From the IMG/VR virus record IMGVR_UViG_3300030012_001584, positions 1-27,824 of that record: a stretch of 27,824 nucleotides of DNA. The stretch is one strand, 5' to 3'. The translations under genes were made by a program, and so were the position numbers. The notes beneath the pieces were generated by a model. That model worked only from the letters and a program-made list of their open reading frames with translations. It was not told the origin of the DNA and did not search any database. The stretch is from a virus. Within the stretch, counting starts at the first letter, position 1. Every line of letters begins with the position of its first letter. Positions 2,805 to 27,693 of the stretch are shown in pieces.

Positions 2805-3590
2805 TTATTTTTTCCAAGTATTATATTTAGAATACTTTTCAATAATATAATCGGGAAGTTCTATTTTTAAATCTCTCTTTTTTATTTTTTTAGTTTGTAT
2901 AGTGTGTGTGTCGTTATAGAAATATTCATCGTTGTATCCTTGAAGTTGTTTGATGTTAGAAAAATTATGTTTATAAGTATCAATGTTTAAAAATCTATAT
3001 ATGTTATTTATAGTCTCATCAACATTACAAATAAAATTATCATAATCAACAAACATAATTTCTTTGCTAGGCTCTAAGTTTTGTATTGAAGATAACATAT
3101 TTACATTATGCTGATTTGACATAATCATATCGACTTTAAAATCAATCTCGTCTTTATACATTAAATTATTTTTATTCAACTCATATTGTTCATTAATATA
3201 ATAATTAGGATTTCTTTCACACACACCTAAAAAAGATTTAATAACATCTTCAATATTTCTTACCATAACAATAATTTTTATTTCGTTTGGGCAATATTGA
3301 CGCAATATATTTAGATTGTATGGTGTAATCCATTCTCCTCGTTCAATGACATAATCCTCTTCTATGTCAGAATAAAAATTTGTAAAATAACTATTTAAAA
3401 TGTTATCAACGCCAAAATCTTGTGGATATTCTTTATGTAAGTCTGTTTCTTTAATATCAAATATTCGGTGCATAATTTCTACATTTGCAGACTTACCTGT
3501 TGCATAGATATTTGGATTTTCATTTAAGATAGAGCTAAGTAAAGTATTACCTGCTCTAGCTAAACCTGACATAAAAAATATTTTTTTCAT
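2805..3590 (-). CDS. Sulfotransferase (PAPS-dependent)
   Basis: This 261-aa protein has the two cofactor motifs of the sulfotransferase family. The 5'-phosphosulfate loop is at residues 7-27 (SGLARAGNTLLSSILNENP). The 3'-phosphate site is at about 109-121 (VMVRNIEDVIKSF, with the usual Arg and Ser). A late IYRFLNI matches the conserved C-terminal helix. It should transfer sulfate from PAPS to a hydroxyl or amine acceptor, probably a glycan or protein, in the cytoplasm of the infected cell. It is the last gene of a three-gene set with APS kinase and a nucleotidyltransferase and overlaps the latter by 4 nt (ATGA). The coding DNA is clearly more AT-rich than the structural genes, which suggests later acquisition. 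The acceptor cannot be read from sequence; the nearby adhesin or a host surface glycan are candidates. Confidence 0.85.
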   Translation of the reverse strand: MKKIFFMSGLARAGNTLLSSILNENPNIYATGKSANVEIMHRIFDIKETDLHKEYPQDFGVDNILNSYFTNFYSDIEEDYVIERGEWITPYNLNILRQYCPNEIKIIVMVRNIEDVIKSFLGVCERNPNYYINEQYELNKNNLMYKDEIDFKVDMIMSNQHNVNMLSSIQNLEPSKEIMFVDYDNFICNVDETINNIYRFLNIDTYKHNFSNIKQLQGYNDEYFYNDTHTIQTKKIKKRDLKIELPDYIIEKYSKYNTWKK

Positions 3591-3934
3591 TTCATTTCTT
3601 TTCTTATTTGTGTTGCAGATATTTGTTGTATTTCATCAGGTAATACAATTTCTTCTATGGAATATCCAACACCACGACCATAACTAATGTTTGTAATATT
3701 AGGTACAAGAATCACATCAAACTTATCTTTATATTTAGGCAGTAACTTTTCTTCTATTTTTTGTTTTACAAATTCAAAGTCAAAAGGGTTACTTTCATCA
3801 ATACCACCTGTGTCTCTAACCATTAAGCAAACTTGTCCTGTTTTTTTAAGTGCTTCTTCAAATAAAGCTAAGTGTCCATTATGAAAAGGTTGGAATCTTC
3901 CTAATAACATTACTGTTGGTTTTTTATAATTCAT
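3587..3934 (-). CDS. Small HxGH nucleotidyltransferase (cytidylyltransferase-like)
   Basis: The product is 115 aa and has two hallmark motifs of the HxGH nucleotidyltransferase superfamily. GRFQPFHNGHL at residues 12-22 binds the nucleotide phosphates, and ISATQIRK at 105-112 is the ISSTxIR-type motif. GRGVGY near residue 86 is a third conserved patch. Known members adenylylate or cytidylylate small molecules (NMN, pantetheine phosphate, glycerol phosphate); ATP sulfurylase belongs to the same superfamily. Because it sits between APS kinase (11-nt overlap) and a sulfotransferase (4-nt overlap), a role in supplying activated sulfate is attractive but unproven. NAD salvage is the main alternative. 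Confidence 0.75.
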   Translation of the reverse strand: MNYKKPTVMLLGRFQPFHNGHLALFEEALKKTGQVCLMVRDTGGIDESNPFDFEFVKQKIEEKLLPKYKDKFDVILVPNITNISYGRGVGYSIEEIVLPDEIQQISATQIRKEMK

Positions 3935-4340
3935 TACAAATTTTTTTAATCATATCTAAATTTAATTCTTCATCAAAAGAATCAACTACATAATTCGCAT
4001 TTTTTGGAATTTCAAATATCTTGTTAGTGTCATCATAAGCACTTTTATTAATAGTATTCATAAAGACAGTAATATCATAACCACTTCTATTTTTTTCATA
4101 AGGGTTTATAAAATCTAAAATACAATGCTTATTGTTAAGTTTACTTAGATTAGCTAAAGCATTCATTCTGTCGCTTTGTCTTTGTCTGCCTTCTAAAGAA
4201 AAATCCCAATCGTTGAATGCTTCTCTTACTTTGTCAGCTTCATAATGGTCTATGGGATAATTTAATTGTTTTACCAATTTTTTAGCAAATGTTGTTTTTC
4301 CAGAACCAGACAACCCAAATACTAATATTTTTTTTGTCAT
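3924..4340 (-). CDS. Adenylylsulfate (APS) kinase
   Basis: At 138 aa this is shorter than typical CysC (about 200 aa). It has a P-loop GLSGSGKTT at residues 9-17. An APS-binding block follows at 34-60, equivalent to the DGDNVR...DLGFS...R region of CysC: here ADKVREAFNDWDFS and then Arg-rich RQRQSDR. FINPYEKNR at 78-86 parallels the FISPHRAER motif. It should phosphorylate APS to PAPS with ATP, feeding the downstream sulfotransferase. The lid region looks shortened and the C-terminus is reduced. No clear Shine-Dalgarno precedes the ATG. The related P-loop nucleotide or polynucleotide kinases are the alternative, but the block around 34-60 favours APS kinase. Confidence 0.75.
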   Translation of the reverse strand: MTKKILVFGLSGSGKTTFAKKLVKQLNYPIDHYEADKVREAFNDWDFSLEGRQRQSDRMNALANLSKLNNKHCILDFINPYEKNRSGYDITVFMNTINKSAYDDTNKIFEIPKNANYVVDSFDEELNLDMIKKICNEL

Positions 4341-20867: not shown

Positions 20868-21366
20868 GGTTCTCAAGTGTATCATCTTTTAATTTTTCTT
20901 GCTCTTCGACTTGCATATCTTGCACATCTTCATCATTAGAACCATTATTCAACTGAAAATCAGTATAAGGAATACCATTTGCAAACTGCACTTCAATAAC
21001 TTCATTAGTATTTTCTATTTGTAATTTACTTGTATCTCCAAATTGTTCTGGGTATTTGACTCCAAGCAACCATTGAATCACTCTAGGGTTTCTATCTTCA
21101 GTTGCTATATCCATTAAAAAATCTAATGCTTTTACTTTAAACTGGGCTTCAGTTAGAGATATTTGAGAAAATAATTGTTCTAGTTCTTCATTACCTTCTT
21201 CAGCTTTCTGTCTCCATCTATAAAAGGTTGATTCATCTATTCCAGCAAACACACAAGCATCTTTGATATAAGAACCTTTACTAATTGCATATAAGAGCTT
21301 ATCTACTATCTCTTGGTCTAAGTATTTGTTCTTTTTCTTTAATCCGAAAAAATTTCTATCGCTCAT
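20860..21366 (-). CDS. terS: Terminase small subunit (probable)
   Basis: The product is 168 aa from ATG 21366. An N-terminal helix-turn-helix (LLYAISKGSYIKDACVFAGIDESTFYRWRQKAEEG, residues about 25-58) is of the kind used by TerS to recognise the packaging site. It is followed by a helix LTEAQFKVKALDFLMDIA, then RNPRVIQWLLGVKYPEQFG, a pattern typical of this family. The acidic C-terminal tail (DEDVQDMQVEEQEKLKDD) may contact TerL. It is located just upstream of TerL. It overlaps the SET-domain gene by 11 nt. Confidence 0.8.
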   Translation of the reverse strand: MSDRNFFGLKKKNKYLDQEIVDKLLYAISKGSYIKDACVFAGIDESTFYRWRQKAEEGNEELEQLFSQISLTEAQFKVKALDFLMDIATEDRNPRVIQWLLGVKYPEQFGDTSKLQIENTNEVIEVQFANGIPYTDFQLNNGSNDEDVQDMQVEEQEKLKDDTLENHE

Positions 21367-21721
21367 CAATAATCTCCACTGGGTTATAAAGTTTGTAAGT
21401 CAATGTTAGTTCTTCCCCAGATTTTACTTCTTTGAGCGTATGTAAGTACATTTCATTACCTACTTCTCTAAGTTTGCAGTTTGGTTCTAGTGAATGATTA
21501 ACAAATCCACCTAGTGCAGTTCTTATATATCCATTCAAGTAATCATGATGCTTAACATGGCTTACTCCTAAAGTTGTGTTCTTTTCTATATCAACTGTTG
21601 CAAATAATCCGAGCCCATCAATTTGGCTTTCTTTGATTGTCAGAGATTTGGGTAAGGGCTTATAGTTCTCCATTGTTAGTTCATCATCTATGTCATCAAG
21701 CAAAGGTTCATCAAATATCAT
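21356..21721 (-). CDS. SET-domain protein (putative protein lysine methyltransferase)
   Basis: The product is 121 aa. From residue 24 it follows a minimal SET domain: SLTIKESQIDGLGLFATVDIEKNTTLG (GxGLFA motif), then GGFVNHSLEPNC at 71-82 (NHS plus the Asn-Cys that line the cofactor site), and GEELTLTYKLY at 102-112 with the catalytic-type Tyr. The pre- and post-SET zinc regions are absent, as in small microbial SET proteins. Known SET enzymes methylate lysines using S-adenosylmethionine. The target is unknown; a host or virion protein is possible. It is coupled by ATGA to a 27-aa membrane peptide upstream and overlaps TerS downstream. Confidence 0.8.
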   Translation of the reverse strand: MIFDEPLLDDIDDELTMENYKPLPKSLTIKESQIDGLGLFATVDIEKNTTLGVSHVKHHDYLNGYIRTALGGFVNHSLEPNCKLREVGNEMYLHTLKEVKSGEELTLTYKLYNPVEIIDER

Positions 21722-26522: not shown

Positions 26523-26624
26523 GTTAAGCATGATGCCTAACCAGTAGGAGTTAGTACATGTTTGGGCTACAAAAGAACATGTATTAAGCGACTTCCAACT
26601 CCTACTGGCTATGCACCCATAGCC
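26523..26624 (-). ncRNA. Three-hairpin structured RNA (leader or small RNA)
   Basis: In minus-strand order: GGCUAUG-GGUG-CAUAGCC (7 bp, perfect); a long stem CCAGUAGGAGUU/AACUCCUACUGG (12 bp, perfect) capped by UACAUGUU/AACAUGUA (8 bp) with a 13-nt loop; then GUUAGGCA-UCA-UGCUUAAC (8 bp). One pair of the last hairpin is G-U in the minus strand and A-C in the plus, so minus is the favoured strand. It lies between a strong promoter and the ribosome site of the excisionase-like gene, so it is either that gene's leader or a separate RNA. Confidence 0.65.
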
Positions 26625-26628
26625 ATTT

Positions 26629-26657
26629 ATTATATCATTGATTAGTGATTGTGTAAT
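26629..26657 (-). promoter_or_regulatory. Promoter with perfect extended -10 (TG-A-TATAAT)
   Basis: Minus strand: ATTACA (-35-like, 4 of 6) at 26652-26657, a 17-nt spacer, then TATAAT at 26629-26634 with TG one base upstream. Initiation about 7 nt downstream would start transcripts at the first hairpin of the RNA at 26523-26624. It overlaps the end of the membrane-protein gene. Confidence 0.6.
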
Positions 26658-26863
26658 CCTATTTGCTTATCAGAAGCTCTGACAAATTTAGGAATACCAT
26701 CTTCATCTTGAAATAATTTAAGTTCTTCTTTTGCTAATCGTTTCTCTTTTATGTCGAGAATAAAAAAAGCAATACCAAAGAATCCAAGAAAGTAGCCACC
26801 AAAAACGATAGCAATCATTTCATGAAGTTCTTTAGCGTAGAACCATTCAGATAACATAGTCAT
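26642..26863 (-). CDS. Single-pass membrane protein, unknown
   Basis: The ATG 26863 follows GAAAGGAGAAAT; the frame is open 45 nt further but that lacks a ribosome site. The 73-aa product has a short N-terminal segment MTMLSEWFYAKELHE, a hydrophobic helix MIAIVFGGYFLGFFGIAFFIL at residues about 16-36 with Gly/Phe repeats, and a charged tail DIKEKRLAKEELKLF. It is preceded by an RNA element at 26889-26969 that is shared with the next gene upstream. Early membrane proteins in phages often act in superinfection exclusion or host inhibition, but nothing here proves it. Confidence 0.65.
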   Translation of the reverse strand: MTMLSEWFYAKELHEMIAIVFGGYFLGFFGIAFFILDIKEKRLAKEELKLFQDEDGIPKFVRASDKQIGLHNH

Positions 26864-26888: not shown

Positions 26889-26969
26889 AATGACCATAAA
26901 GCTCTCACTCACATGTGTAGATATTTATTTATAATAAATTAATTTGGCGAGTAAGAGCTTTAGCTCACT
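26889..26969 (-). ncRNA. Intergenic RNA element, copy 1 (covarying with 27505-27581)
   Basis: Minus-strand RNA: outer stem AGUGA/UCAUU, internal loop GC/UGG, then a 16-bp stem from UAAAGCUCUUAC to its complement with two G-U pairs, and an A/U-rich loop with AAUAAAUAU. The first two bases of the outer stem are the last two of the upstream stop codon (TAG). The second copy keeps the same frame, loop and placement with different stem bases. It precedes the ribosome site of the membrane-protein gene. Confidence 0.8.
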
Positions 26970-27471
26970 AGCTGTTTTCGATTTCAGCTATTTGACCATA
27001 TATTTTTTGCACTTCTGTTTTGTGTGCATCTTGTATTTCAGCAAGTTGTTTTTCTAAAGCAGTAATCGCTTTCTTCTTGCGATACTCTTCAACTTCTTTT
27101 CTTTTAGGATTATCAGTTGGTAGTTCTGTTACCGACAAAATTTCAACTTTGTTTCGGTGTCTGTGACTACTCCACTCAATAACCATTTGTTCAAGCTGAC
27201 CAGTAAGATACTCAATACCTAGTTCTTTAGATTGAACTTCGACAAGATACTTCAAGTATTCATCTGAAGATTCAATGTGCTTTGAACCAGTACAGTAGAA
27301 AGTATATTTTCTGTTCTTATGCTTTAGAACTTTCTCCCCACGAAATAACAATCTCCAACAAGCACCACATCTGAAAATGGATTTCTTTCCAGCTGGATTT
27401 AAAGTCACATGATAGAAGTCTGGTAAGTCTTCTAATTGTTCTTCTTTATTATTGGATATTTCTGTATTCAT
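26968..27471 (-). CDS. Cys-containing protein with C-terminal coiled coil, unknown
   Basis: The 167-aa product starts at ATG 27471 after GGAGTAAATT. Residues 20-62 read FYHVTLNPAGKKSIFRCGACWRLLFRGEKVLKHKNRKYTFYCTG. C-GAC plus a later Cys could make a zinc knuckle. Residues about 120-167 form a charged heptad-like helix (EEYRKKKAITALEKQLAEIQDAHKTEVQKIYGQIAEI). I recognise no family. It is preceded by RNA element copy 2 and followed by copy 1, which begins inside its stop codon. Confidence 0.7.
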   Translation of the reverse strand: MNTEISNNKEEQLEDLPDFYHVTLNPAGKKSIFRCGACWRLLFRGEKVLKHKNRKYTFYCTGSKHIESSDEYLKYLVEVQSKELGIEYLTGQLEQMVIEWSSHRHRNKVEILSVTELPTDNPKRKEVEEYRKKKAITALEKQLAEIQDAHKTEVQKIYGQIAEIENS

Positions 27472-27504
27472 AATTTACTCCATTCTAGTAATCATGTCTG
27501 ACAT

Positions 27505-27581
27505 AATTACCATAGAGCCCACCACTTTATATATTTATTAGTACATATACAAAAGGGTAATGTGATGAGCTCTAGCTAATT
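27505..27581 (-). ncRNA. Intergenic RNA element, copy 2 (covarying with 26889-26969)
   Basis: Minus-strand RNA: outer stem AAUUA/UAAUU, internal loop GC/UGG, 13-bp stem UAGAGCUCAUCAC/GUGGUGGGCUCUA with two G-U pairs, and an A/U-rich loop with AAUAAAUAU. As in copy 1, the outer stem starts at the second base of the upstream stop codon (TAA). The 3' side can instead pair with downstream CATGATTAC (27488-27510) in a 9-bp hairpin, so two exclusive folds are possible. Confidence 0.8.
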
Positions 27582-27693
27582 ACATACTCTTATATTTTAA
27601 GTAATCTTCGAGTCCAGCTTTAGTTCTAGGATTCATTGTATGAAACCCAGTCTTCTTCTTACTCTTAGCTTTCCTTCTTTGAGCACGATTCAT
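27580..27693 (-). CDS. 37-aa basic protein, unknown
   Basis: The frame starts ATG 27693, overlapping the upstream stop (ATGA), and ends at the TAA where RNA element copy 2 begins. The sequence MNRAQRRKAKSKKKTGFHTM then NPRTKAGLEDYLKYKSM is strongly basic in its first half. Such short basic proteins may bind nucleic acid. The function is unknown; coupling supports real translation. Confidence 0.55.
   Translation of the reverse strand: MNRAQRRKAKSKKKTGFHTMNPRTKAGLEDYLKYKSM

Follow-up and report, generated by a model that had tools for sequence, protein, structure and literature searches.

A stop-anchored family of paired intergenic hairpins in the early region of uncultured marine phages, with a possible role in messenger processing

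Why should two gaps between small phage genes fold into the same RNA structure, and what might such a structure do? The question is raised by a virus record of 27,824 bases, the whole of which was analysed here (the window); its main genes are all encoded by the minus strand. A first-pass annotation had singled out two gaps as copies of one RNA structure kept by compensatory base changes, and had placed both gaps correctly. The hairpins and the adjoining genes are the following.

26889..26969, minus strand: hairpin copy 1 (type A1), an outer stem of 5-6 bp, a GC/UGG internal loop and a 16-bp inner stem; outer arms 26965-26969 paired with 26889-26893, inner helix and loop 26897-26962
27505..27581, minus strand: hairpin copy 2 (type A2), an outer stem, a GC/UGG internal loop and a 13-bp inner stem; outer arms 27577-27581 paired with 27505-27509, inner helix and loop 27513-27574
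27580..27693, minus strand: 37-aa gene (MNRAQRRK...) upstream of copy 2, whose stop codon is the anchor of copy 2; conserved cluster g5
26968..27471, minus strand: 167-aa gene between copies 1 and 2, with conserved Cys, Tyr-Cys and Lys-His positions
26642..26863, minus strand: 73-aa gene 3' of copy 1, with a hydrophobic stretch; by eye a putative membrane protein

Folding is confined to the minus strand, as had been claimed. The z-scores were -6.7 for copy 1 and -3.9 for copy 2, against -1.4 and -1.0 on the plus strand, and none of 200 shuffles (copy 1) and one of 200 (copy 2) folded equally well on the minus strand. When the pairs were re-derived from the sequence, the 13 inner pairs of the two copies differed by exactly the five double changes and the single U-A to U-G change described before, and both changes given for the outer stem were exact as well. 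The loop string AAUAAAUAU is present in both window copies, as reported, but it is not general in the family, where the loops of relatives range from 3 to 75 nt. A comparison with 4227 Rfam families gave no gathering-level match within the window.

Relatives were IMG/VR contigs gathered by searches with TerL, the DnaD-like protein and the 167-aa protein; all sequences come from one viral collection, many contigs are closely related, and copies within one genome are paralogues. Type A was also sought with a DNA pattern, which matched 13 stretches. Copies 1 and 2 occur at the same places in L002, L028, L040, L044 and L051, the copy 2 type was found in L021, L023 and L052, and the copy 1 type in L019. 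Type C, a compact form whose loop is 3 nt long, has the same ends as type A, and these ends are also retained in L071 and L072, where the loop is 75 nt long. Relaxing the type A pattern added one contig, L210, with a copy like that of L189 (stem by eye); the remaining matches were known or due to chance.

Covariation among these homologues is strong. The 16 distinct type A arm sets, which include one imperfect copy and one chimera, had 98.5% of cells paired; among the 17 pairs, 13 showed two-sided changes. Their covariation score was 0.675, compared to 0.239 after shuffling (reached in 0 of 500 shuffles, a count that is not a probability, the rows of arms-only alignments being related, partly paralogous and chosen for paired stems) and at most 0.112 when the partners were slid. 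In the arms-only alignments (A3, A5, A6) GAAA stood in as a loop placeholder, so that pairing was tested and not the loops. In a set of 23 instances, the first 12 inner pairs comprised 231 Watson-Crick and 45 G-U pairs, with no A-C pair and no mismatch. The presence of 45 G-U pairs with no A-C pair in the inner stems indicates that the RNA of the coding strand is the selected molecule. Judging from these comparisons, the coding-strand RNA fold is under selection, in agreement with the first-pass annotation. Its alternative, a plain recent duplication, is excluded, because several diverged genomes have the copies next to each other, with variation that keeps the pairing.

Copies 1 and 2 are members of a multi-copy hairpin family, with several hairpin types in a cassette-like early region, a wider system than the first-pass annotation had recognised. 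In relatives that reach further upstream, a hairpin follows many of the small early genes. The commonest is type B, which occupies the remaining early region in the relatives and occurs in other uncultured phages as well, including contigs in which none of the window's proteins has a detectable relative; a blastn search of the isolate phages of the collection returned no type B copy. Since the contig ends within the early region, types A and D are all that the window has. Type B has the form TATCTA-A-(about 9 bp)-A-TAGATA, with a short hairpin (GATACTT..AAGTATC) after it. We collected 92 distinct copies, with a maximum of five or six per genome. Their inner pairs vary freely and are always paired (100% paired; covariation score 0.419 against 0.141 shuffled), copies having been admitted only with at least 7 inner pairs. 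A search with only the basal strands fixed found at least 80 stretches, and at newly fetched loci, among the matches listed, 95 of 101 had 8-12 inner pairs and 6 of 101 had two or fewer. An A.A mismatch is present in 92/92 copies, where the 5' A was fixed in all scan patterns and the 3' A in the basal-strand pattern; where the 3' side had been left free in the search, 26 of 27 copies kept it, and the one that did not is a type D-like element.

Two further hairpin types were noticed. Type D (GGTGCATAGCCAGTAGGAGTT...AACTCCTACTGGTTAGGCATC) is a longer, distinct hairpin at 26532-26617 (minus strand) of the window, upstream of an HTH gene and directly 3' of a promoter-like site at 26629-26657 (10-of-12 sigma-70-like). 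Short hairpins on both flanks compete for its arms, and in relatives its stems differ and still pair. Type E (CAAACTG...CAGATTG, with an A.A mismatch) is found in L040 (415-445), L057 (1487-1517) and L012 (382-412), close to where the early region starts, and is followed by a short second hairpin of its own.

The hairpins are anchored to stop codons. In both window copies the outer stem has base 2 of the upstream stop as its first base (TAG for copy 1, TAA for copy 2), as originally noted, and the same anchor recurs across relatives: it was found in 21/25 type A copies, the anchoring stop being the end of the longest open frame nearby. In type B, 70 of 92 copies have the stop starting 4 bases ahead of the stem. 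Stop-codon readthrough was considered and rejected; in copy 1 a second stop immediately follows.

The outer stem itself has a competitor. Two downstream features bear on it.

27486..27512, minus strand: second hairpin of copy 2, TGGTAATTATGT-CAG-ACATGATTACTA, 12 bp, mutually exclusive with the outer stem
26857..26863, minus strand: candidate alternative partner of the 3' arm of copy 1, AUGACUA, in the start codon region of the next gene

When copy 2 was folded with its downstream sequence, the second hairpin took the 3' arm of the outer stem and beat that stem by 3.3 kcal/mol. The outer stem of copy 2 is thus one of two alternatives: the fold first proposed is among them, but it is not the best one once the downstream sequence is included. 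A compensatory change in the type A2 second hairpin is seen in L021 and L023 (TGGTAACTA/TAGTTATCA). Copy 1 lacks a separate second hairpin; its predicted AUGACUA partner is kept in orthologues, with a ddG relative to the outer stem of +1.5 in the window and -2.0 to +0.8 in the orthologues. A second downstream partner for the 3' arm recurs in copy 2 and in types B (84 of 92 copies) and C, and inspection shows one in type D as well. Most energy differences between the two folds fall within -4.4 to +2.9 kcal/mol, one reaching +7.0. In L072 one position is altered in all three strands, from TATCTA/TAGATAC/GTATC to TAGCTA/TAGCTAC/GTAGC. Within the second hairpin of copy 2 begins a six-codon frame (ATG ATT ACT AGA ATG GAG TAA, 27475-27495, minus strand). 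This frame and the SD of the 167-aa gene overlap, and its counterpart in L057 (contig of L051) continues into that gene.

Exact stop anchoring, near-isoenergetic alternative partners and the position of the AUGACUA partner of copy 1 and its orthologues at a start codon all suit a translation-coupled switch, in which a terminating ribosome would cover the 5' outer arm and the freed 3' arm would re-pair downstream, setting translation of the next gene. A ribosome modelled over the stop codon, however, shifted SD and start accessibility in no consistent direction: mean ATG openness went from 0.36 to 0.37 in type A and from 0.60 to 0.62 in type B, with an SD that was picked automatically, and wrongly in several A2 copies. 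The modelling therefore does not support a general initiation switch. The second hairpin of types B and C, moreover, ends before the ribosome-binding site. We regard such a switch as unlikely. Because the ribosome-binding site is on average about equally free in both states, a role in processing or stability of the messenger fits better.

The second property to be explained is the placement of the hairpins between exchangeable genes. Gene content between the hairpins varies among genomes, and the order of the hairpins is similar. The 167-aa gene is present or absent as one unit. It is missing in L012, which has a single hairpin: the 5' part corresponds to copy 2, and the 3' part, from TATGGTCATTATCTAAACT onwards, to copy 1. 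This chimera indicates that L012 lost the gene through a join between the two hairpins. As read from gene content, gain and loss of genes take place between hairpins, which form the borders. These observations raise the alternative of an element acting mainly as DNA, a recombination joint or a mobile hairpin that moves cassettes with no RNA role. In addition to the L012 chimera, hairpin-centred islands of about 60-110 nt are alike between neighbouring cassettes that are otherwise non-homologous, identical type B copies occur twice in L124, and the ends of alignments are enriched in hairpin zones (110 of 403 against 10.4% expected, in cases that are not independent). Against a pure DNA role, G-U pairs without A-C pairs on the coding strand point to selection on the RNA of one strand, the copies lie in the orientation of transcription 3' of stop codons, and no recombinase was found among the scanned window proteins. 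An element with no RNA role is accordingly quite improbable. An attC-like DNA palindrome was also considered, the ends of types D and B resembling integron R boxes by eye; it is disfavoured by the A.A mismatch, by coding-strand G-U pairs without A-C pairs and by the lack of a recognised recombinase.

What kind of RNA element might this be? Being GC-containing hairpins 3' of stop codons, the copies could be taken for intrinsic terminators or attenuators. They are not followed by a U-tract, however, no terminator was called on the minus strand in either gap (in a scan of loops of 3-8), and genes in the same direction continue with no sigma-70-like promoter site on the minus strand of the two gaps. 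Termination or attenuation is thus highly improbable.

The pattern of conservation was then considered. The basal sequence and the internal loops are far more strictly conserved than the inner stem; the GC/UGG internal loop is found in most type A copies. The outer stem has only 3 bp in the A2 copies of the L021 type and is out of register in the L012 chimera. Strict basal parts, together with an alternative state of two adjacent stem-loops, would fit a site for a phage or host RNA-binding protein, or a nut/put-like antitermination signal read by RNA polymerase. A copy after nearly every small gene would be unusual for antitermination sites, though, and no candidate protein was found, so this explanation seems rather unlikely to us. 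Nevertheless, the strictly kept internal loops (GC/UGG in type A, A.A in type B) exceed the known needs of RNase III, and they may point to a specific protein.

The total helix measures 19-23 in 21/25 type A copies and 20-23 in 80/89 type B copies. A full fold of about 19-23 rungs with one small internal loop has the size of a typical RNase III substrate, which by analogy makes punctuation of the messenger the likeliest function. We therefore favour, at a probability of only about 0.42, an intergenic element for mRNA processing or stability with a secondary role as a recombination joint, a function inferred from the anatomy described above. The hairpins would be cis-acting elements that punctuate a long polycistronic early messenger, where co-transcription of the small early genes is assumed from their spacing and orientation. 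Each hairpin would be cut, or would block 3'-to-5' decay of the message of the upstream gene. The freed 3' arm could then refold as the second hairpin and protect the 5' end of the downstream piece, and the similarity among copies would also provide a joint for cassette exchange. Against this reading speak, besides the strictly kept internal loops, the lack of a separate second hairpin in copy 1 and the outer stems that are shortened in L021-type A2 copies and out of register in the L012 chimera. A broader reading, in which the hairpins form an undescribed class of bistable, stop-anchored intergenic RNAs whose basal strand exchanges partners at the gene end (by ribosome or nuclease) and whose copies are cassette joints, is possible but doubtful. 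It is with the same doubt that this class would follow most small early genes of a large group of uncultured marine phages.

Other genes of the window were noted in passing. Three adjoining genes at 2805-4340 (minus strand) resemble, by eye, a sulfotransferase, a nucleotidyltransferase (GRFQPFHNGH) and an APS kinase-like P-loop kinase, possibly a phage sulfation cassette. A gene for a SET-domain protein (Pfam PF00856, E 2.7e-11) at 21356-21721 (minus strand) adjoins the terminase genes. As to the host, the search with the DnaD-like protein found no prophage, that with TerL gave remote matches only, and the exonuclease, with 26% to actinobacteriophages, is not decisive.

Finally, the family was compared with described systems. 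According to PMC4503421 (citing Arbiol 2010 and Comeau 2014), the promoter early stem-loops (PeSLs) of T4-type phages are repeated elements between small early genes that mark modular exchange, and are composite promoter-terminator motifs. As in that account, the stem-loops of the window family lie at the borders of exchanged small-gene modules; unlike the motifs portrayed there, the two gaps hold no sigma-70-like promoter site on the minus strand and no terminator-like stem-loop (no U-tract, no call). Neither stop anchoring nor a competing second hairpin is known to us in PeSLs. The ESAS elements of cluster K mycobacteriophages are multi-copy inverted repeats as well, which lie close to the ribosome-binding site in the gaps preceding small non-structural genes; their 17-bp inverted repeats adjoin the 13-bp SAS, and there is little support for formation of an mRNA hairpin (PMC3203893). 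The window family shares multi-copy inverted repeats in gaps by small genes, but it has strong mRNA covariation, is placed after the stop codon, and the SAS motif GGGATAGGAGCCC was not seen in the two gaps. On the features tested, membership in PeSL or ESAS fails. Like caiA RNA (Rfam RF02934), the hairpins are followed by an A-rich stretch, an SD and a start codon, and type B aligns across the whole caiA model; its best Rfam score of 32.8 bits, however, compares with a gathering threshold of 55.5, and the type A copies of the window give no match.

The opinion that no described family has this design thus holds for this particular hairpin family and not for its general kind, to which PeSLs and the RNase III sites of T7 are loosely similar. 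The structured RNAs thereby gain a well-supported family that occurs in many uncultured marine phage contigs and is found neither in Rfam nor in the searched isolate phages. It offers a concrete, testable link between RNA structure at gene ends, the processing of messengers and the way in which small early phage genes are turned over as cassettes. The RNase III sites of the T7 early region are intergenic hairpins of about 20 bp with an internal loop, on a polycistronic transcript. The window family has a similar intergenic helix of about two turns with a small internal loop; it differs in sequence, in its stop anchoring and in its recurrent alternative pairing, and cleavage here is putative. 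Processing with a secondary role in recombination is favoured because the anatomy resembles the T7 processing sites in its possible action and the T4 PeSLs in its placement.
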